From positions 1 through 38,605 of the forward strand of contig CAIVJW010000161.1 of assembly GCA_903906315.1 (NCBI GenBank): DNA of 38,605 nt. The letters run 5' to 3'. Positions 1,781-31,953 of this stretch are shown one piece after another. The position numbers and the translations under genes were made by a program. The notes under the pieces are model-generated. The model saw nothing but the letters and a program-made list of their open reading frames with translations, had not been told where the DNA came from and did no database searches. The stretch is from an uncultured delta proteobacterium (lineage in GTDB: Bacteria; Myxococcota_A; Polyangia; Polyangiales; Polyangiaceae). The first letter of the stretch is position 1. Each line of letters starts with the position of its first letter.

Positions 1781-3106
1781 TCACTTCGGCGTCGGGATCG
1801 GGTTCGTGCCGATCGCGACGGTGCCGCCGTTCGCGACCCACTCGAACTTGTCGAGCAGCACGGTCGAGTCGAGGTTCTGGTCACCGGTGTCCCAGATGGC
1901 GAACCGGATGGAGAACTGCTCGCCGCCCTTCACGGGGGACTCGGTCATGAGCCAGCTCGTCGCGCCGGCGTCGCCGTCCCCGCCGAAGCCGTTGTCGAAG
2001 CCCGTGCCCGCGAGCTCCTTCGGGCCGCTCGGGCAGTACGGGTTGGGCAGCCCGGGGCAGTTGCTCATCGGGTCGAAGCTGCAGAACTGGCCGAAGTTGC
2101 TCGCGCCCGCCGGGTCGCAGGCGTCGAAGAACGCGATGTTGACGCTGACGGGGTTCGACGCGCTGTCGAACGAGATGTTGCCGTTGATCGATCCCTGCGG
2201 CGGCGGGTTCACCAGCGCGATGAACTGATCGTTATACGAAGTGCAGACCCACTCCGGGAACTCGAACGATTGGAACTTGAACAGGAAGCGGTAGCCCGTC
2301 GCGTTCGTCGGCGCGCGCAGCGTGAGGTCGAGACCGACGTCGTCGTTGATGGCCTTGTCGCCCTGGCAGTTCGGCACGTCCTGCGGGAACCCGGGCGGGG
2401 CGTTGCCGTTCGCGTTGCTCGTGCACGACTCGCTGTCGCACGCGCCGGGCTGCCCGGGCAGGCGGGAGTAGCCCGAGGAGAGCACCAGCATGTGGGTGCC
2501 GCCCTGCACGTGCACGTTCGGTCCGAAGCCCGTCAGGAGGCCGACCTGCGCGGCGGGGTTCATCGCCGACCCGTCCGCGCGCACGTACCTCGCGGAGACG
2601 ACGCCCCACTTCTTGTCGTTCGCGCCCGCCACGTTGCACAGCTCGATCGCCTGCGCGCCGGCCATCGCGTCGACGCTGTCGAGCGCGACCGCGTCGTCGC
2701 AGGACTTCGGCAGCTCGGCCTTGCCGTCACAGTCGTTGTCCGTGACCGTGCCGGGGCCGCCGTCCGTCTCCATGAGCGCGTCGACCGCGCCGGGGTTCAC
2801 GTTCGCGTCGCAGTCGTTGCAGTCGCCCTGAGCGCCCGTGAAGCCGTCCGCGTCGCCGTCCTCGTCGGGCCCGTGGTTGCACACGGTGCCGGTCGGGTTG
2901 CCGCCGCCGCCGCCGGTGACGTTGAAGCCCCCCTGGCCGTCGTTGCCGCCGCCGGTGGTGCCGATGTTGGTGCCGCTGCCCCCGCTGCCGTTGCCGGCGG
3001 TGGTGCCGTCGTTGCCGAAGGTGCTGCCCTTGTCGACGGCGGAGCACGCGGTCGCGATCGCGACGGCGGAAGCGAGGCCGAGAAGTGAAACGAGGCGTCG
3101 AGACAT
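1781..3106 (-). CDS. MopE-motif / choice-of-anchor L domain lipoprotein (paralogue 3)
   Basis: A 441-residue exported protein. An N-terminal signal ends in IATAC with Cys21, a plausible lipobox. A Gly/Thr/Asn-rich linker (about 26-75) follows, then a MopE-type Cys/Asp motif (DEDGDADGFTGAQGDCNDCD, then NPGAVD and NDCDGKAE), known in metal-binding surface proteins. The rest matches the choice-of-anchor L layout: LTGFG, a LSSG segment, GNISFDS..NPVSVNIAFFDAC, and a C-terminal LAGTGFD ... SWLMTESPV ... FAIWDTGD..LDSTVLLDKFEW. It is the last of three tandem paralogues and shares these blocks with both. The ATG is supported by AAGAGGG upstream. It has its own 271-base leader region with a candidate sigma-54 site. 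Function beyond a secreted, perhaps calcium- or copper-binding surface protein is unknown. Confidence 0.8.
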   Translation of the reverse strand: MSRRLVSLLGLASAVAIATACSAVDKGSTFGNDGTTAGNGSGGSGTNIGTTGGGNDGQGGFNVTGGGGGNPTGTVCNHGPDEDGDADGFTGAQGDCNDCDANVNPGAVDALMETDGGPGTVTDNDCDGKAELPKSCDDAVALDSVDAMAGAQAIELCNVAGANDKKWGVVSARYVRADGSAMNPAAQVGLLTGFGPNVHVQGGTHMLVLSSGYSRLPGQPGACDSESCTSNANGNAPPGFPQDVPNCQGDKAINDDVGLDLTLRAPTNATGYRFLFKFQSFEFPEWVCTSYNDQFIALVNPPPQGSINGNISFDSASNPVSVNIAFFDACDPAGASNFGQFCSFDPMSNCPGLPNPYCPSGPKELAGTGFDNGFGGDGDAGATSWLMTESPVKGGEQFSIRFAIWDTGDQNLDSTVLLDKFEWVANGGTVAIGTNPIPTPK

Positions 3107-3377
3107 GGGCTAGCCCTCTTCGGTTAAGTCAGGGGTGCGCGACGTGGCGACTGGCCGACAACGATGGAGGCGCGCCGGACCGCGCGTCTCGGGGCCCGCG
3201 CGAGGCCCGAACCACCGAGGCGATGCAGGAACGCTGCCACAAGGTCGCGCGCTCGACTAGCGCGAATGCGCGGGCCACCTCCCGGCGGCGCCGGTGATTC
3301 CGCTGCGCGTGTGAGAGTGAAGTCCGGGCGCTATGAGCGGGTATGGCGGGGCGTTCCGCGTGCGCCACGGTGCGCCA
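3107..3377. other. Intergenic region between lipoprotein paralogues
   Basis: 271 bases between two same-strand paralogues. No credible gene is seen. The only notable element is a sigma-54-like sequence on the minus strand at 3222-3237. Confidence 0.6.
3222..3237 (-). promoter_or_regulatory. Candidate sigma-54 (-24/-12) promoter
   Basis: On the minus strand the sequence reads TGGCAGCGTTCCTGCA, with the invariant GG and GC in the right phase (consensus TGGCACGN4TTGCA). It lies about 116 bases upstream of the lipoprotein start at 3106. A match of this quality can arise by chance, and no enhancer site was identified. Confidence 0.3.
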
Positions 3378-4715
3378 TCACTTCGGGGGCGGGCCGGCGT
3401 CGCGGACGGTGATGAGCTTGCCCGGCTCCGCGGACCACTTGAAGTTGTCGATGATCGTCGTCGAGTCGACGTTGCCGTCGCTCGAGTCGTAGGTGACGAA
3501 GCGCAGGACGAACTTCTGGCCCTTCTCGACGGGCGCGCTCGTCTCGAGCCACCCCGAGGAGCCATTCGTGAAGCCGGGGTTCGAGTCGTCGTTCGCGAAG
3601 TCGGTGCCCGCGAGGCCCTTCGTGCCGAACGCGCAGTCGAACGCCTTCAGCGGCTTGTCGGGCGGCACGCTGCACGCGCCCGGCGGGCTGCCCGGGCAGC
3701 CGCAGATGTCGAGGAAGGCGTTGTTGACGCTGATCGGGTTGCCTAGCGCGTCGAACGAGATGTTGCCGTCCTTCTGGCCCGCGGGGAACGGGGACATGTT
3801 CGCGACGAAGAAGTCGTTGAACTCGGTGCAGATGTACTGCGGCCACTCGTAGGTGAAGAAGTTGAAGTCGAACGAGAAGCCCTGCGCGTTCGTCGGCGCC
3901 TGGATTTCGAGCTCCAAGCCCGCGGCGTCGTGCGGCTCCTTCGTCTTAACGCCCTGGCACGCCGGGCTCTCCTTGGGGAAGCCGAAGGGCGGGCCGCCGA
4001 CGTATCCCTTGTCGAAGTTGCGGTGCACGAAGCCCGGGTCGGTCGGCCGGCGCGCGGTGCCCGAAGAGAGCGCGAGCACGCGCTTGCCCTCGAGCGGCGC
4101 GTTCGACGCGCCGAAGTCCGGCAGGATGCCGTGGCCGAGGTGGAAGGCCGTGAGCTGCGCGGCGTCCGCGGGGGGCGGGGCGCCGTCGGCCTGGACCCAC
4201 TTCGCCGACTTCACCCACTTCGCGCAGAGGCCGCCGATCGCCTTGGCGCCGTCCATCGCGTCGGCGCTGTCGAGCGCGAGCGCGTCGTCGCACGGCTTCG
4301 GCAGCTCGGCCTTGCCCGAGCAGTCGTTGTCGGTGACGACGCCGGGGCCGCCGTCGGCCTCCTCGAGCGCGTCGACCGCTCCCGGGTTCACGTTCGGGTC
4401 GCAGTCGTTGCAGTCGCCTTGCTTCGGGCTGAACCCGTCCTTGTCCTGGTCGGCGTCCTCGTCGGTGATCTCGCAGACGCCGCCGTCGCCGTCGCCGGTC
4501 GTGGTCGTGATGATGTTGCCGCCGCTGCCGCTCGTGCCGGTCGTCGTCGCGCCGCCGGCGCCGCCGTCCTGCGCGCCGGTCGACGTGCCGCTGCCGCCGA
4601 AGCCTCCGCCGCTCGGCGTCTCGGTCGGGGGCGAGCAGGCGTTCATGCCGACGGCGACGAGGGCGGTGATACCGACCAACCCGAGCAATGGAAAGCGCGA
4701 CCGCGAAAGCACCAT
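3378..4715 (-). CDS. MopE-motif / choice-of-anchor L domain lipoprotein (paralogue 2)
   Basis: Start chosen at 4715 rather than the in-frame ATG at 4721: GGAGG lies only one base before the latter but six bases before the former. The 445-residue product has a signal ending VGMNAC (Cys27), a Gly/Thr/Ser-rich linker, a MopE-type motif with DQDKDGFSPKQGDCNDCDPN and NDCSGKAELPKPCDDA, and a choice-of-anchor L region (LSSGTARRPTDPG, GFPKESPACQ, GNISFDALGNPISVNNAFL, LAGTDF, GWLETSAPVEKGQKFVLRF, DSTTIIDNFKW). These blocks recur in the same order in the flanking paralogues. Only 52 bases separate it from the upstream paralogue, so co-transcription is likely. Probably an outer-surface lipoprotein; ligand and partner are unknown. 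Confidence 0.8.
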   Translation of the reverse strand: MVLSRSRFPLLGLVGITALVAVGMNACSPPTETPSGGGFGGSGTSTGAQDGGAGGATTTGTSGSGGNIITTTTGDGDGGVCEITDEDADQDKDGFSPKQGDCNDCDPNVNPGAVDALEEADGGPGVVTDNDCSGKAELPKPCDDALALDSADAMDGAKAIGGLCAKWVKSAKWVQADGAPPPADAAQLTAFHLGHGILPDFGASNAPLEGKRVLALSSGTARRPTDPGFVHRNFDKGYVGGPPFGFPKESPACQGVKTKEPHDAAGLELEIQAPTNAQGFSFDFNFFTYEWPQYICTEFNDFFVANMSPFPAGQKDGNISFDALGNPISVNNAFLDICGCPGSPPGACSVPPDKPLKAFDCAFGTKGLAGTDFANDDSNPGFTNGSSGWLETSAPVEKGQKFVLRFVTYDSSDGNVDSTTIIDNFKWSAEPGKLITVRDAGPPPK

Positions 4716-4767
4716 GAGCATCCTCCAGCGAACGAAGCGTACGAGCGGAGAGCGAGCGAGGTGAAGC

Positions 4768-6042
4768 CTACTTGGGGACGGGCACCGGGGCCGTCTTCGT
4801 CGGCGCGTCGCCGACCTCGAAGGTGAAGTTGTCGAGCAGCACGGTGGAGTCGAGCACGCCGTCGCCCGAGTCCCAGATCGCGAACTGCAGCGTGACCTCG
4901 CCGCCGGGCTGCTCGAGCGGCGCGGTCGTGACGAGCCAGCCGGTGGCCGCGCTGTTCCACGCGTCGAACTCGCTGTCGTCGAAGCCGGTGCCGAGGAGCT
5001 GATCGCGGCCGAGCGCGCACGAGAAGGTCTTGTTGCCCGCCGCGCAGGGCGGGCCGCCCTCGCAGCTGCAGACCTCGAGGAAGCCGGCGTTGACGCTGAT
5101 GGTGTTGCCCTTGGCGTCGAAGGAGATGTTGCCGTCGGGTTGGCCCGCGAGCTTCGGCGTCAGCAGCGCGACCATGAAGTCGTTGAACTCGCTGCAGGTG
5201 TAGTGCGGAAACTCGTACGTGTAGAAGTTCAGGTTGAAGGCGAGCGACTTGGCGTTGGTCGGCGTCTTCAGGGTGACCTCGAGGCCCGCCGCGTCGTGCG
5301 GTGCGCCCGTGACCACGTCGGGGCACGACGGCGACTCCTTGGGGAAGCCGGGCGGCGAGCCGGTGGTGTAGCCCTTGTCCCAGCCGCTGACCGACTGGTA
5401 GCCCGGGTCCCCCGGCAGGCGCGCGGTGCCCGAGGAGAGCGCGAGGAGCTTGGCGCCCTCCTGCGGCTTGACCTTCGCCCCGAACCCCGAGAGCACGCCG
5501 TGCCCGATGCCGGACGGATCCACCTGGACCAGCGGCTGGCCGTCGGCCGTGACCCAGCGCGCGCTGATCACGCCCCACCGCACGCCGTCCGCGGGCTTGC
5601 AGAGGCCGATCGCGCGCGCGCCGTCGAGGGGATCGGACCCGTCGATCGCGAGCGCGGCGTCGCAGCCGATCGGCGTGTCGTCGGGCGCTCCGCTGCAGTC
5701 CTCGTCGACGCCGTTGCCGGGGTAGTCGTAGGCGCCCGGGCTCATCTGCGCGGTGCAGTCGTTGCAGTCGCCCTGCGCGCCGGTGAAGCCGTCGCCGTCG
5801 TGGTCGTCGGCGGGATCGATGCCGTCGCAGGGGGGGGCTTCCTTGAGGATGCCGCTGCCCGAGCCGCCGCTGCCCGGCCCGATCTGGATGTCGCCGCCGC
5901 CCGCGCCCGCGCTCGTGGTCGCGTGGCCGCCGCCGCCTTCGCGGCCGTCGAACCCGCTGCTCCCATCGCGCGTCGCGCTGCAAGCCGCCACGGCGGCCGT
6001 GGTGAGCATCAGGGCCAGTCCGACCCGGGAACCTGTGCTCAT
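4768..6042 (-). CDS. MopE-motif / choice-of-anchor L domain lipoprotein (paralogue 1)
   Basis: First gene of the tandem trio, 424 residues. The signal ends AVAAC (Cys21), followed by a Gly/Ser-rich linker, then DDHDGDGFTGAQGDCNDC and a variant tail (NGVDEDCSGAPDD) closer to classical MopE repeats. The choice-of-anchor L region shows LSSGTARLPGDPG, GFPKESPSCP, GNISFDAKGNTISVNAGFLEVC, LLGTGFDDSEFD, GWLVTTAPLE and FAIWDSGDGVLDSTVLLDNFTF. It lies 169 bases downstream of metK on the same strand, with a small hairpin after metK, so it probably has its own promoter. Its linker and Cys spacing differ from the other two copies, suggesting an old duplication. Confidence 0.8.
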   Translation of the reverse strand: MSTGSRVGLALMLTTAAVAACSATRDGSSGFDGREGGGGHATTSAGAGGGDIQIGPGSGGSGSGILKEAPPCDGIDPADDHDGDGFTGAQGDCNDCTAQMSPGAYDYPGNGVDEDCSGAPDDTPIGCDAALAIDGSDPLDGARAIGLCKPADGVRWGVISARWVTADGQPLVQVDPSGIGHGVLSGFGAKVKPQEGAKLLALSSGTARLPGDPGYQSVSGWDKGYTTGSPPGFPKESPSCPDVVTGAPHDAAGLEVTLKTPTNAKSLAFNLNFYTYEFPHYTCSEFNDFMVALLTPKLAGQPDGNISFDAKGNTISVNAGFLEVCSCEGGPPCAAGNKTFSCALGRDQLLGTGFDDSEFDAWNSAATGWLVTTAPLEQPGGEVTLQFAIWDSGDGVLDSTVLLDNFTFEVGDAPTKTAPVPVPK

Positions 6043-27241: not shown

Positions 27242-28747
27242 CTAGGGCAGCCGCAGCGTCGTCTGGAAGAAGCCCCAGTGCTGCGCGTCTGTGGTCGCGC
27301 GCTTCGCCTCGGCGAGGATGTTCTTCGCGGCGTCGCCGAGCGCGAGCACGCCGTAGCCCGCGCCGAGGGCGAGCGCCTCCCACGGCGTCCACTCGACCAC
27401 GAGGTCGACCGCGTGGCCGAGGAGCTTGGACCCGTTCGTCGGAGCCGCGCCGATCGGTGCGAGCGATCCCGACGTCCAGCGTCCGGCGGCGGAGGCCAGC
27501 GCGGCCAGCCGATAGCCGGCCCCGATGGTGACCTCTTCGGCGGGCCGGAGCGACACGTTGCCGCCGAGCTCCATCAGGTTCGACCACGCGTAGGCGTCGA
27601 GCACCCCGTGGTTCCGGTGCTCGTCGGGCAGGATGGGGTCGAAGCGCCGCTCGGTGCCGTGCAGGTCCTTGCCGTCGCCGCCGCCGCTCGCGTACGCGCC
27701 CTGCACGCCAAAGGTGAGGTGCGCGGGCAGCGCCGTTTCGAGCGCCACCTTGCCCGCGAGCGCGAACGCGCTGAGCTGCCTCGTGCCGCCGTACGTCGCG
27801 AGGCGGCCGGCCTCCCAGGCGCCTTCGACCGCGTAGCGCAGGCCTCGCCAGTCGCCGAACGCGCGGCCGTCGGCCACGAAGGTGTCGCCTGGCGTGAGCG
27901 TCGTCGGGATCGGCTCGCGGACGATGCGCGCGAGGCCCGTGGCTTCGAGGTTGAGCAGCGGCCAGAGGTGCCAGACGGCGTTCAAGCCGTAGAGCTGCGC
28001 GCCGGTGCCCTCGGGCGCGGGCGCGCGCGACCCGACGACCGACGGCGGCATCGCGCCCGGCGCCGCGAGGAGCACCGCCATCGCCTCGAGGTCGACGTCT
28101 CCGAGCTGCAAGCCGCCGCGCAGCGCGTCGAGCGATCGCCCCGTGTGCGACCAGTCGTTGGCCCCGACCAGGCGCCCGTCGCCCCACGAGACTCGCTGGC
28201 GGCCGATGCGGACGAACGCGCGGCGACCGGTGCGCGTGTGCGCGTCCGCGTACGCCTCGTAGGGCGCGATCGACGGGAGCGTCGGCTGGCCCGGGCCGAG
28301 GACCGCGGTGTCGGCGTTGCCGAGTGATCGCGCGTCCTGCATCGTGACGGCGGCGGTGACGGGACCGCGGTCGATCGCGAGGCCGAGGCGCGTGCGCTCG
28401 GCGACCAGCCACTGCGCTCGCACCGGCGCCTTCACGTCGACCACCGTCGGCACCGCGGCGCCGTAGCCGTTCGACAGCACGGCGCTGGAGCCGTACACCG
28501 CGCCTCCCGTGTCGAACGGAGCGCTGCGACCCTCCCCGCGCACCCGGACCTCGACGAGCGGTCGGAGAGTGAAGCCCCCGACCGTGAACCCCTCGGCGGG
28601 CGTCTGCGGGGCGGCCTGCGCGTGAGCTTCGGACGACGCGCACGCGAGCGCGGCGGCGGTGAGCGCGGCCGACGCGAGGCGCGCCAGGTCGGGCGCGCAC
28701 CCGCGTCGCGTGGCGGTGGAACGGGACGGCACGGTCGGCACCCCCAC
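27242..28747 (-). CDS. Outer-membrane beta-barrel, alginate-export-like
   Basis: A 501-residue exported protein. An N-terminal signal ends EAHAQ (about 43-44). The rest has alternating aromatic and polar residues of a barrel. A central RIGRQRVSWGDGRLVGANDWSHTGRSLDALRGGLQLGDVDLEAMAV block matches the alginate-export (AlgE-like, Alginate_exp) family. A late FDPILPDEHRNHGVLDAYAW segment and a terminal FFQTTLRLP, with the C-terminal hydrophobic pattern of barrels, agree with this. No alginate genes are near, so the substrate is open. It starts with GTG three bases after the stop of the coiled-coil lipoprotein gene, so the two are co-translated, and the GYF_2 gene heads the same run. Confidence 0.8.
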   Translation of the reverse strand: MGVPTVPSRSTATRRGCAPDLARLASAALTAAALACASSEAHAQAAPQTPAEGFTVGGFTLRPLVEVRVRGEGRSAPFDTGGAVYGSSAVLSNGYGAAVPTVVDVKAPVRAQWLVAERTRLGLAIDRGPVTAAVTMQDARSLGNADTAVLGPGQPTLPSIAPYEAYADAHTRTGRRAFVRIGRQRVSWGDGRLVGANDWSHTGRSLDALRGGLQLGDVDLEAMAVLLAAPGAMPPSVVGSRAPAPEGTGAQLYGLNAVWHLWPLLNLEATGLARIVREPIPTTLTPGDTFVADGRAFGDWRGLRYAVEGAWEAGRLATYGGTRQLSAFALAGKVALETALPAHLTFGVQGAYASGGGDGKDLHGTERRFDPILPDEHRNHGVLDAYAWSNLMELGGNVSLRPAEEVTIGAGYRLAALASAAGRWTSGSLAPIGAAPTNGSKLLGHAVDLVVEWTPWEALALGAGYGVLALGDAAKNILAEAKRATTDAQHWGFFQTTLRLP

Positions 28748-28750
28748 GCG

Positions 28751-29662
28751 CTACGGCTCGAAGTCGTCGGAGGGCTTGCCCTTGCGCGCGGGCTTCGCGG
28801 CCGGCGCGGGCGAGGCGGCCGGCGCGGGGGCGGAGGCTCGTGGTTGGCTCGCCGGGGGCTTCGGCGCGCGACCGCGCGGCAGCGACGCGGCGCCCTTCTT
28901 GGCATTCTTCGCGCTTGGCGGCGGGCACGCCTCGGTCGGCGGCGGGCCCTCGGCGTCCGTCGCGCCGGTTTCGACGGCGCGCGCGAGATCCACGAGCAGG
29001 CGGGACGCAGCGCCCGCGACGCGCACGCTGGTGCCGCTCGTCTCCTCGAGCACGGCCTTCGACCCGTCGAGCTCCTTCTCGATCTCGGCGCGCTTGCCGG
29101 ACGGCGCGCCCTCGAGCTTCTGCGCGGTGCCCTCGCGCAGCTCGACCCGCTGCTTGTCGAGCTTCGCGGTCTGCGCGCCGATCTCGGCGACGCGTCGCGC
29201 GAGCGCCATCGACTTGCCCGCGGCGGTTTCGACGCTGCGCGTGAGGCTCTCGGCGTCGCCACCCTCGGGCGCGTCGCCGCTCTTCTTCACGAGCAGGCGC
29301 GTCGACGGCAGGAGCTGCAGGTGCATCAGCACGCCGTAGTCGTGGAGCTTCTTCGCGCGCTCCGCCGCCTTGTCGATCATCGCGTCGGCGTCGGCGCCGA
29401 GGGCGCGGGCGAGCTCCTGCCGCGCAGCGGACTCTTCCTCCTCCGCCTTCTTGGCCTCGTCCCGCGCCTTGAGCACCGCCGTGAAGAAGTCGTCGTACGC
29501 GGCCTCCCCGGTGCTCGGTGACTCGCCCGCCTCGATCTTGGTTGCGGCGCGGCCGAAGCAGCCGGCCGTGGCAAGCGCGATCGCGATCGCGACCGCGGCG
29601 AGGGGGGCACGCGGGCGCGCGGGCCGGGGGCCTTTCGAGCCGCGCGATCGCAGAGGATTCAT
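28751..29662 (-). CDS. Coiled-coil lipoprotein in the GYF/barrel operon
   Basis: The ATG at 29662 overlaps the stop of the upstream gene (ATGA), which settles the start; ATG at 29668 is the alternative. The 303-residue product has a lipobox-like ATAGC (Cys35), then a long helical region rich in Lys, Glu and Ala (about 55-235: FFTAVLKARDEAKKAEEEES, AAERAKKLHDYG, QTAKLDKQRVELREGTAQKL, EIEKELDGSKAVLEET). A Pro/Ala/Ser/Lys-rich tail follows. It resembles a periplasm-spanning coiled coil, perhaps bridging the membranes or the wall. No family is recognised. It sits between a membrane protein with a cytoplasmic GYF_2 domain and an outer-membrane barrel. Confidence 0.75.
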   Translation of the reverse strand: MNPLRSRGSKGPRPARPRAPLAAVAIAIALATAGCFGRAATKIEAGESPSTGEAAYDDFFTAVLKARDEAKKAEEEESAARQELARALGADADAMIDKAAERAKKLHDYGVLMHLQLLPSTRLLVKKSGDAPEGGDAESLTRSVETAAGKSMALARRVAEIGAQTAKLDKQRVELREGTAQKLEGAPSGKRAEIEKELDGSKAVLEETSGTSVRVAGAASRLLVDLARAVETGATDAEGPPPTEACPPPSAKNAKKGAASLPRGRAPKPPASQPRASAPAPAASPAPAAKPARKGKPSDDFEP

Positions 29663-31953
29663 CCGCATTGCAGGATAGCCCCCCAGAGCTCGTAGCTCGA
29701 CCGGCCCTTCGAGAGGAACACGGTCGCCGCGTACGCGCCCGAGATCGCGACGATCCCCTGGCCGAAGTTGCCGGCGGGCGGCGAGAGGGCGATCGGGTCG
29801 CCCACGGGGGTGAAATCGGCCGCGAGCGTCTGCGCGCGGATGGCGCGGCCTCCCGCCGCACCCTCGGTCCACACGAGCAACCAGCGCCCGTCCGGCAGGC
29901 CCGCGATCCCCGGCGCGAACGCGTCTCCGCCGGGGCCGCCTTTCGGCAGCGCGACGACGACCGTCGACGCAGGCGGAACCGGGGGCTTCGCGCGGCCGAG
30001 CCGGATCTGCCAGGGCGCGTCCTCCGCCGGCCGATCGGCAAACACCACCGCGAGCTCCCGGCCGTTCCAGCCCGTCATCGGCTTGCCGACCGGGCCGCCG
30101 GAGCCGGCGATCTTCCCGAGCGCGCCCGCAGGCTTGTGCTCCGCGCCGAGCCACCCGCCCCAGACGGCCCCTCCTCGCCGCATCACGAGGCCGAAGCCGG
30201 CGGTCCCCGCGCTCTGGGCGCGCAGCGCCTCGACGCCCGCGTCCTCGCCGAGCGAGAACAGCGAGGTCGGCGCCGCGTCCGGCCGGTCGAGCGTGGCCAG
30301 CGACCCCTGGTGAACGCCGACGAGGCCGCCTCGATCGTCGGGGAGCTGGAGCGCGCCTCGCAGCACGGACTCGGAGCCGGATGCCATCACCGCGAAGGCC
30401 TTCCCGCCCACGGGCAGTGGCGTGACGCGCTCGACGTCCGCGCGCGTGGGCTCGGCGAGCTGCTCGGTGAGCACGCCCGACGTCGGATCGACGCTCACAC
30501 CGACGGCGTCGCGGGCGCCGCGAGCGAACCCGACTGCGAACGAGCCGTCCTTGGTCGCGACGACGTCGAACGGGACGCCCTTCTCGACTTCCGGTGCCCA
30601 GCGCACCGGTTGTCGCGCGACCCAGCACGGCTTCGGCGCGGGCGGCACCGCGTCTCGCGCCGCCATCGCGGCCCGTCCGACGCCCGCGCGCGCGTAGAGC
30701 GCACCCGCGCGCCCGAGCCCGCCGGCGGTCGTCGCGCGTCCGGCCAGGAACGCCGCGACGACCATGACGATCAGCGCGCCGCCTGCGCCGACGAGCGACG
30801 ACACCGGCACGGTCACTGAGCCGGCGAGGCGCCTCGAGCGCGCGGGCGCCGGGTCGTCCTCGACGAGGGACTCGACAGCCTCGTCGGGCAGCAGGGTCGC
30901 CGTGATCACGCCCGCCTCGAGGGACGCGAGCGCCTCGGCCACGTCGCTGCGCGGGGGCTTGAGCGACGCGGCGAGGAGCGGGATCGACGGCTGCGACCGC
31001 CTCGCGGCGGAGGCCTCCGGCGGCGCGCTCGGCGCGGTCGCGGCCTCGCGTCCCGTTTCCTCCCCATCGAGCAGCTCCGAGATCGGCAGCTTCGCGGTCG
31101 GCTCGACCCGGTCGTTCGGGCCGGTCGTCGGCGACGCGAGCCTGGCGCTCGCGAGCGCCAGCAGCGACGGGGCTGCGCTGATCGGCGCCTCGTTCGGCCG
31201 GAGCCCGCTCGTGAGCGTCGGCTTCGGCGTCGGCGTCGGCGGCCTCCCGTGCGCGGCCTCCGCCCCCTTCCTCGGTGGCGGCGTCGTCGGCCCCGCCTTC
31301 GGCGGCGGAGGCGGCGGCTTCGTCGTGCCGCTCGACGCGAGGCCCTTCGCGCCCCCGTAGGGCAGCGTGAGCGGCGGCCGGTCCGTCAGCTTCGGCGGCG
31401 CCTTCAGCGGCTTGCCGGTGACGGGCCCGCGGCTCTTCGGCGGCCCGCCAGCGCGTCCACCGGCGGCCGACGTGCGGCTCGACTCCCGCCGCACCTGGGT
31501 CTCGAGCGCGTCGTCCTCGAAGATCGAGTCGTCGTCGAGGTCGCGCGCCTCTTTCCTTCCCGGCTTCGACCCCGCCGCCTCGTGCGCCAGGATCGCGGCG
31601 CGCGCGGCCGACACGCGCGGGTCATTGCCGCCGAGCCCGAGGAGCGTCGGCATCTTGCCCTTCGGCAGCGGCTCCGGCAGCGTCGAGTCCATTCTCGGCG
31701 GTGCGCGCACGTCGGTCTGCTCGTCGGTCGTCGTTGGATCCATCGTCGGTACGTCCGTCGGCCCTTCGCGCTCGCTCCCGCTGGCCAGCTCGGAAAACGT
31801 GGAGGCAGCGGCCCAGTCGTCCATTCCCTCGCGCCGGACGAGCGCCGTCGCCGGGATGGCGCCGTTCGCGATCACCCGCCGTAGCTCCGCGATGCCGCCG
31901 GTTCGCGGCTTCCCGCGCTCGTCGGTCCAATTCCACTGGTCGGCGGCGCTCAC
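29659..31953 (-). CDS. GYF_2-domain single-pass membrane protein
   Basis: The GTG start at 31953 is chosen because GAGGAG lies five bases before it; upstream in-frame sequence has no ribosome site. The 764-residue product begins with a GYF_2 (DUF4339) domain: QWNWTDERG..GIAELRRVIANGAIPATALVRREGMDDWAAA (6-52), a fold that binds Pro-rich peptides. A long low-complexity cytoplasmic stretch follows, rich in Pro, Ala, Ser and Lys with a polyproline run. Next is one membrane helix near 380-405 (LVGAGGALIVMVVAAFLAG), then an external region of about 350 residues whose repeated strand pattern (SFAVGFARGARD, FAVMASGSESVLRG, RELAVVFADRP, RWLLVWTEGA, YAATVFLSKG) suggests a beta-propeller. It overlaps the next gene by ATGA. 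It is divergent from the comF-type gene. Confidence 0.78.
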   Translation of the reverse strand: MSAADQWNWTDERGKPRTGGIAELRRVIANGAIPATALVRREGMDDWAAASTFSELASGSEREGPTDVPTMDPTTTDEQTDVRAPPRMDSTLPEPLPKGKMPTLLGLGGNDPRVSAARAAILAHEAAGSKPGRKEARDLDDDSIFEDDALETQVRRESSRTSAAGGRAGGPPKSRGPVTGKPLKAPPKLTDRPPLTLPYGGAKGLASSGTTKPPPPPPKAGPTTPPPRKGAEAAHGRPPTPTPKPTLTSGLRPNEAPISAAPSLLALASARLASPTTGPNDRVEPTAKLPISELLDGEETGREAATAPSAPPEASAARRSQPSIPLLAASLKPPRSDVAEALASLEAGVITATLLPDEAVESLVEDDPAPARSRRLAGSVTVPVSSLVGAGGALIVMVVAAFLAGRATTAGGLGRAGALYARAGVGRAAMAARDAVPPAPKPCWVARQPVRWAPEVEKGVPFDVVATKDGSFAVGFARGARDAVGVSVDPTSGVLTEQLAEPTRADVERVTPLPVGGKAFAVMASGSESVLRGALQLPDDRGGLVGVHQGSLATLDRPDAAPTSLFSLGEDAGVEALRAQSAGTAGFGLVMRRGGAVWGGWLGAEHKPAGALGKIAGSGGPVGKPMTGWNGRELAVVFADRPAEDAPWQIRLGRAKPPVPPASTVVVALPKGGPGGDAFAPGIAGLPDGRWLLVWTEGAAGGRAIRAQTLAADFTPVGDPIALSPPAGNFGQGIVAISGAYAATVFLSKGRSSYELWGAILQCG

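Follow-up and report, generated by a model that had tools for sequence, protein, structure and literature searches.

A conserved gene pair of Polyangiaceae encodes a GYF_2/beta-propeller membrane protein and a lipoprotein with a recurring C-terminal tail

The stretch of DNA analysed here (the window, 38,605 nucleotides) is one whole contig (C161, CAIVJW010000161.1) of the 8.79 Mb genome of an uncultured member of the Polyangiaceae (GCA_903906315.1, completeness 98.55%). Three genes run head to tail on its minus strand at 31953-29659, 29662-28751 and 28747-27242, and encode proteins of 764, 303 and 501 amino acids (aa), respectively: a predicted bitopic inner-membrane protein with a periplasmic beta-propeller, a putative lipoprotein and a predicted outer-membrane beta-barrel. 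The first two genes share a 4-base ATGA overlap, which extends to 10 bases if translation starts at the ATG two codons upstream (preferred by the gene caller), and the second and third are separated by 3 bases. An earlier note on this DNA, made from the sequence alone, had described this layout over the same span and had suggested that the three products could together span both membranes. Relatives of all three products are present in other genomes, so the trio is not a chance reading. As detailed below, the conserved unit is a family-wide, uncharacterised two-gene module of propeller protein and lipoprotein, and the lipoprotein ends in a short peptide that recurs on other lipoproteins.

The GYF_2 domain (PF14237) read by the earlier note in the 764-aa protein exceeds its gathering cut-off (35.4 bits versus 25.8; profile positions 15-50 of 50). 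It occupies residues 21-56 (31786-31893) and 17 of the 21 relatives in the alignment match it as well (E up to 0.01), L101, L105 and L117 having no N-terminus in their gene calls. Genes were called by our own codon-usage script, because of which gene starts and some absences are uncertain; in L103, L105, L108, L110 and L156 genes were shortened or missed. Between GYF_2 and the membrane lies a Pro-rich linker of about 320 residues (about 63-386; 30796-31767), predicted to be cytoplasmic. It is followed by a hydrophobic stretch at residues about 387-405 (30739-30795), in agreement with the single helix claimed before, which a hydropathy scan predicts to be transmembrane. The linker contains one T-L-x-G motif after basic residues (KGKMPTLLGL, residues 98-107). 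In 60 proteins this motif was observed 34 times versus a shuffle mean of 9.9 (maximum 20 of 500 shuffles), at a density of 1.87 per 1000 aa versus 0.88 in other proteins, kinship being uncorrected. Many members are without it, and this roughly threefold excess over shuffles may be regarded as a lead only.

The remaining 327 residues (438-764; 29662-30642) form a domain whose alignment across 21 sequences contains 19 invariant columns. These include one cysteine near each end (Cys443 and Cys763), the only cysteines in the protein, and exactly two cysteines occur within the last 330 residues in 44 of 50 loci. AlphaFold2 run on this alignment predicts an all-beta propeller with predicted local distance difference test (pLDDT) 91.4 and predicted template modelling score (pTM) 0.91, and a fold search points the same way, in line with the "propeller-like outside" of the earlier note. 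The best structural match is CylK (7fh7; Z 24.8, root-mean-square deviation 3.3, 303 residues aligned), followed by a rhamnose-glucuronate lyase (Z 23.3), PLL lectins (Z 20-22) and G-beta proteins (Z about 20). Identity in these matches is 7-13%, or 10-14% over the fold for CylK and the PLL lectins when both fold searches are counted. Judging from the matched folds, the number of blades is probably seven. No sequence relative in PDB was found by the 21-sequence profile at E up to 1. Since PLL-type lectins and glycan lyases are among its nearest structural neighbours, the propeller might be a lectin-like or enzyme-like binder of envelope glycans, with the lipoprotein as a mere spacer. We consider this improbable: the matches share 6-14% identity, and comparable scores are reached by propellers with many different functions, among them G-beta proteins. 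The modelled propeller is a common fold, from which function is not assignable. The nearest named relatives of the domain come from Polyangium, Minicystis, Byssovorax and Sorangium, in keeping with a Polyangiaceae source, near-identical records possibly having been omitted from that search.

In its cytoplasmic half the protein shares the GYF / Pro-rich / one-helix plan with GltJ (AgmX, NF033761) of the Myxococcus Agl-Glt gliding machinery. Contrary to the earlier remark that no described system of this composition was known, the cytoplasmic half thus has a described relative; the periplasmic half differs. AgmX/GltJ, a component of the gliding machinery, has been called a potential integral membrane protein, with no Pfam domain listed (PMC3169522). 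Nine GYF_2 matches were detected in the genome of the window. On other contigs, L002 carries the AgmX/PglI domain and L003 and L006 carry the MJ0042 zinc ribbon. All three score well under the cut-off of the GltJ equivalog, whose model, in L002, aligns to the GYF region. In contrast to these GltJ-like proteins, the window protein has neither domain and ends in a predicted beta-propeller. It does not match the N-terminal MJ0042 zinc ribbon (TIGR02098), both cysteines lying in the propeller domain, nor the AgmX/PglI C-terminal domain (NF033768), nor the GltJ equivalog, nor any other NCBIfam family at E up to 1. Having no zinc ribbon, no AgmX/PglI domain and no match to the GltJ model, it was not classed as a GltJ member. 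That the protein is nevertheless a GltJ relative, acting as a motor-coupling adaptor in gliding or surface machinery, would fit the cytoplasmic plan common to L002, L003 and L006. This seems very unlikely, as the NCBIfam search returned no GltJ, GltG, zinc ribbon or AgmX/PglI domain, and no motor gene was recognised among the scanned neighbours.

A cytoplasmic GYF-like domain on a membrane protein has also been described for Bdellovibrio Bd0075, proposed by AlphaFold-Multimer to bind Bd0474 with an interface predicted template modelling score of 0.619, a "grey area" according to its authors (PMC12034629). Bd0075 differs from the window protein in that TPR domains, not a propeller, are mentioned for an extra-cytoplasmic region, and the word "lipoprotein" does not occur in the main text (PMC12034629). 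Published GYF_2 literature, among the matches listed, concerns human GIGYF2, its kin or its gene. No treatment of the propeller/lipoprotein pair was found in literature on bacterial GYF and GltJ proteins, a search whose coverage leaves out most subscription papers and did not extend to the tail motif.

The second gene (28751-29662) encodes a 303-aa protein with a lipobox-like site ATAGC at Cys35, Thr taking the place of the usual Leu at -3; the lipoprotein assignment made before is thereby upheld. The approximately 180 residues of coiled coil that were claimed along with it are not. A plain coiled coil was rejected in favour of a predicted helical domain with a hairpin: the model (pLDDT 84.5) displays two helices, a beta-hairpin and two longer helices, followed by a low-confidence, Pro-rich tail of about 70 residues. 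Counted from residue 36, the helices span 19-53, 57-73, 100-147 and 153-197, and the hairpin 76-92. The protein has no Pfam match over cut-off and no NCBIfam match, and no Pfam match is common to even two of 22 relatives. No solved relative stood out. The best Foldseek E was 0.2, VIA Z values of up to 11.3 lie within the range about which the tool warns for helical bundles, and the best profile match to solved sequences is a designed protein (E 0.0014). Distant relatives of the lipoprotein in other families of the class (L192-L196) match mainly its N-terminal part and are without the DFxP tail; in L192-L195 they adjoin a conserved set of genes of 150, about 329 and about 475 aa, and L196 contains several copies.

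A periplasmic beta-propeller that works with an outer-membrane lipoprotein is known from TolB-Pal. TolB, however, is a soluble protein, and Pal is OmpA-like and binds peptidoglycan, whereas here the propeller is predicted to be membrane-anchored and the lipoprotein is predicted to be helical and has a tail. No OmpA family is found among Pfam matches of the 22 lipoproteins at E up to 0.1.

To estimate how far the order extends, 144 genomes were searched, 69 of them from the family of the window (Polyangiaceae). The propeller profile matches 53 of the 69, two of them weakly (G026, G029), and 16 of the 75 genomes outside the family, all partially (best E 1.5e-20). The lipoprotein profile matches 46 family genomes, all of them propeller-positive, along with nine weak matches outside (best E 7e-11). 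Counted by hand from the two profile searches, the family genomes divide into 46 with both genes, seven with the propeller only, none with the lipoprotein only and 16 with neither (Fisher p=1.3e-10, uncorrected for kinship or tree). Among the 54 distinct propeller loci compared, 44 have the lipoprotein gene as their immediate downstream neighbour; the set comprises the window together with 49 named and 7 unnamed loci, minus two duplicates and L175, in which the propeller gene was not called. Among 50 deduplicated loci with an adjacent pair, loci with separated genes being left out, the two genes overlap in 34, by 10 or 4 bases in 29 of them, and other gaps measure 4-136 bases. In the same set, distances between propellers and between lipoproteins correlate at 0.74. 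The partial correlation is 0.66 (n=34) given ComF, the ComF-like phosphoribosyltransferase gene lying divergently upstream of the trio, and 0.44 given FtsH, which converges on it from downstream. The assumption of the earlier note that the trio is made together can be retained in part: the first two genes, at least, are probably co-expressed, but the data do not support one obligate system of three. A second, diverged propeller and lipoprotein occur in L168, L171, L206 and L210 with their genes apart; this lipoprotein keeps the DFEP end and is followed by a gene of 649-662 aa.

The third product (27242-28747) belongs to the Alginate_exp family (PF13372; 101.4 bits versus a gathering cut-off of 25.2), and the alginate-export-like barrel of the earlier note is thus borne out; no alginate-synthesis gene was recognised among the scanned neighbours. 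The barrel was matched in 26 of 59 genomes, the one studied included. Comparison of loci, which had been named as a check, revealed that the three-gene order is not unique to this genome. It showed equally that the barrel is specific to a clade. We compared 43 readable loci (distinct, with the lipoprotein adjoining the propeller gene and a further gene called). The barrel is the gene that follows next in the same direction in 17 of them, Sorangium cellulosum and Polyangium included, and the other 26 have no barrel there. All 17 fall within one supported set of 24 rows in a quick propeller tree (Shimodaira-Hasegawa-like approximate likelihood ratio test 98). Strict adjacency requires at least four changes on this tree; a single arrival with losses or insertions requires about five by our own reading. 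A single arrival of the barrel beside the pair is plausible from these data.

That the three products assemble into an obligate complex across the envelope, the barrel forming the pore, could be argued from this clade, where the barrel lies somewhere in the fetched stretch at 20 of 24 loci. In 7 of 21 loci the gap between lipoprotein and barrel genes does not exceed 3 bases, and the propeller-barrel distance correlation is 0.85, or 0.67 given FtsH (n=17). Against this, the gap is 27-234 bases in the other 14 loci, the fetched stretch contains no barrel at any of 31 loci outside the clade (stretch lengths differing), and a different clade has the barrel directly after a gene of the poly(A)-polymerase family. 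Co-occurrence is weak as well: among 37 genomes (G000-G036, barrel counted at E below 1e-29), 18 have both barrel and propeller protein, 10 the propeller only, two the barrel only and seven neither (p=0.05). Co-occurrence and the propeller tree led us to reject the whole trio as a unit, and an obligate complex of three appears unlikely. Beside the pair in its one clade, the barrel may serve as an optional third component or be no more than a porin transcribed together with it.

A striking feature of the lipoprotein, which the earlier note had not mentioned, is its very end. In the window it reads D-F-E-P-COOH (residues 300-303; 28754-28765). A terminal (D/V)F-x-(P/M/F) is found in 55 of 57 distinct relatives with 100 bits or more, the two exceptions being L173, located at a contig end, and L204, a diverged copy. 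Phe at -3 is present in 55 of 57 (entropy 0.25 bits); entropy is about 0.8 at -1 and -4, 2.0 at -2 and 1.8-2.9 from -5 to -15. Genomes without a barrel match (G013, G021) or with only a weak one (G006) retain the tail as well. As a base rate, an ending in (D/V)F-x-(P/M) was seen on none of the other distinct proteins, 1143 in number, that were called at the pair, barrel and neighbouring loci.

We first took the tail for a private property of the pair lipoprotein; this had to be abandoned when the genes behind the matches of a tail pattern were read. The pattern, DF(E/D/N/K)P followed by TRR, occurs at two sites in the genome of the window, one being the lipoprotein end with its stop and the other a TGG. 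Its counts in forward/reversed control were as follows: own genome 2/1, G019 3/4, G003 2/1, G014 5/5, G077 3/3, G020 9/1, G034 1/0, G013 4/4, G060 2/1, G023 5/4, G030 2/0, G150 0/3, G011 3/2, G074 2/3, G004 6/0, G012 3/2, G028 0/2, G065 8/5 and G017 2/1. Since they are mostly near the reversed control, the counts alone are uninformative. Among called genes of these 19 genomes, however, 16 end in DF(E/D/N/K)P (short uncalled frames and matches ending in TGG left out), and 13 of these encode Pro-rich-tailed lipoproteins: nine of the pair type (one a diverged copy), three with a VWA domain and one of 475 aa. The remaining three are other proteins (L227, L239, L304).

The VWA type was found in G020, where a lipoprotein of 397 aa scores 34.1 bits for a VWA domain (cut-off 23.8) and ends in a Pro-rich tail and QDFNP. 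With its last 60 residues removed it does not match the pair-lipoprotein profile. Relatives occur in 35 of 60 family genomes. DFNP terminates six of the 30 whose ends could be read (G020, G080, G016, G030, G023, G015); these are the closest relatives with a readable end (59% identity or more), and the rest (52% or less) end otherwise. L252 (73% identity) runs off its contig, so that its end is unreadable. Loci of the VWA family lie separate from the pair (L242 at 1501-2694 on the minus strand, L247-L251, L283 and L301), and their tails are Pro-rich or of low complexity before DFNP. The 475-aa lipoprotein, in G030, ends in RPDDFNP (L291, 88-1515, plus strand) and does not match the pair-lipoprotein profile; its genome has the propeller gene, and no pair lipoprotein was detected there. 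Of the five genomes with a propeller and no detected pair lipoprotein, G023 and G030 have the tailed VWA lipoprotein. The tail is thus a module that recurs on lipoproteins of at least three types, among which profile comparison detected no similarity, and this recurrence fits a docking peptide.

Taken together, these data lead us to suggest, tentatively and with somewhat more doubt than confidence, that the pair makes an envelope-spanning contact in which the tail serves as a docking peptide, its receptor most likely being the propeller. Judging from anatomy, the propeller protein would sit in the inner membrane, with GYF_2 and linker on the cytosolic side and, on the periplasmic side, the propeller, whose two cysteines would form a closing disulphide. 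By the +2 rule, which governs sorting of lipoproteins to the outer membrane, the lipoprotein would reside there, its helical domain and flexible Pro-rich tail reaching into the periplasm. The C-terminal (D/V)F-x-(P/M) peptide would then dock on the receptor, and the resulting contact could be read in the cytosol through contacts between GYF and poly-Pro; poly-Pro stretches of the same linker could themselves be GYF ligands. The propeller is favoured as receptor because propellers commonly bind short peptides, because the two genes are tightly coupled, and because the tail is kept where there is no close barrel relative (G013, G021, G006). Other lipoproteins with the same tail could share the receptor. 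A shared docking site would call for just such a peptide, conserved at the C-terminus of several dissimilar lipoproteins.

The main rival to the propeller as receptor is some general factor of the envelope that binds the tail, be it peptidoglycan, a machine for assembly or sorting, or a common partner, the pair acting in one process without tail contact. This alternative is less probable, though it deserves serious weight. It would account for the tail on at least three dissimilar lipoprotein types (that of the pair, VWA in 6 of 30 loci, and the 475-aa protein of G030) and for its preservation at L205, L207 and L210, diverged copies that are located away from the propeller gene. On the other hand, within the family the pair lipoprotein never occurs without the propeller gene (0 of 46). 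Further, no tailed lipoprotein was found by pattern in five genomes with neither propeller nor pair lipoprotein, where one unrelated 282-aa protein ends in DFEP; a universal machine should have clients there, few as these genomes are.

Several observations weigh against a propeller-tail contact. As the tail also occurs on other lipoproteins, its receptor could be such a general factor. The propeller protein is present in each of the six genomes that have a tailed VWA lipoprotein, yet 43 of the 60 genomes searched have it too, which makes this association weak. In three of the five propeller-only genomes checked (G150, G011 and G074) no tailed lipoprotein was found by the DF(E/D/N/K)P pattern, to which the search was confined. 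The lipoprotein was undetected in seven of the 53 propeller-positive family genomes; two of these have weak partial propeller matches, and five have full-length ones. The two genes lie apart in L168, L171, L210 and L207/L208. The distance correlation does not single out the pair: propeller-barrel distances correlate as strongly as propeller-lipoprotein ones, and the barrel may therefore have a real role in its clade. A simple lipobox pattern was not seen in nine of 57 lipoprotein gene calls (partly short calls), and Asp occupies +2 in four of the other 48. Finally, neighbouring genes give no functional clue; judged by Pfam matches and by sequence they are housekeeping or ordinary.

Two further observations concern the surroundings of the pair. 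In L111, L114 and relatives, which form another clade, a DsbD-like gene converges on the pair and adjoins a TPR gene. A link between this gene and the two propeller cysteines is possible, although its orientation argues for chance. Elsewhere in the window, at 1781-6042 on the minus strand, three tandem paralogous lipoprotein-like genes encode proteins that are 424-445 aa long. The first and second, which contain an Asp-rich stretch, share 46% identity over 377 residues, and the third has a weak match to the MopE metal-binding motif.

The most interesting feature of the system is that a C-terminal peptide common to other lipoproteins stands beside a dedicated propeller, a combination that is directly testable. 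A broader proposal, which we regard as doubtful, is that (D/V)F-x-(P/M)-COOH constitutes a docking tag of Polyangiaceae, carried by several unrelated outer-membrane lipoproteins and received by the GYF propeller protein, which would tether them and report envelope spacing or integrity to the cytosol. If the propeller does not bind the tail, the shared tail still calls for another receptor. If it does, the pair would represent a new use of the GYF / Pro-rich / one-helix plan of gliding proteins, and a novel type of contact linking the two membranes of the Polyangiaceae, the family that includes the natural-product producer Sorangium.

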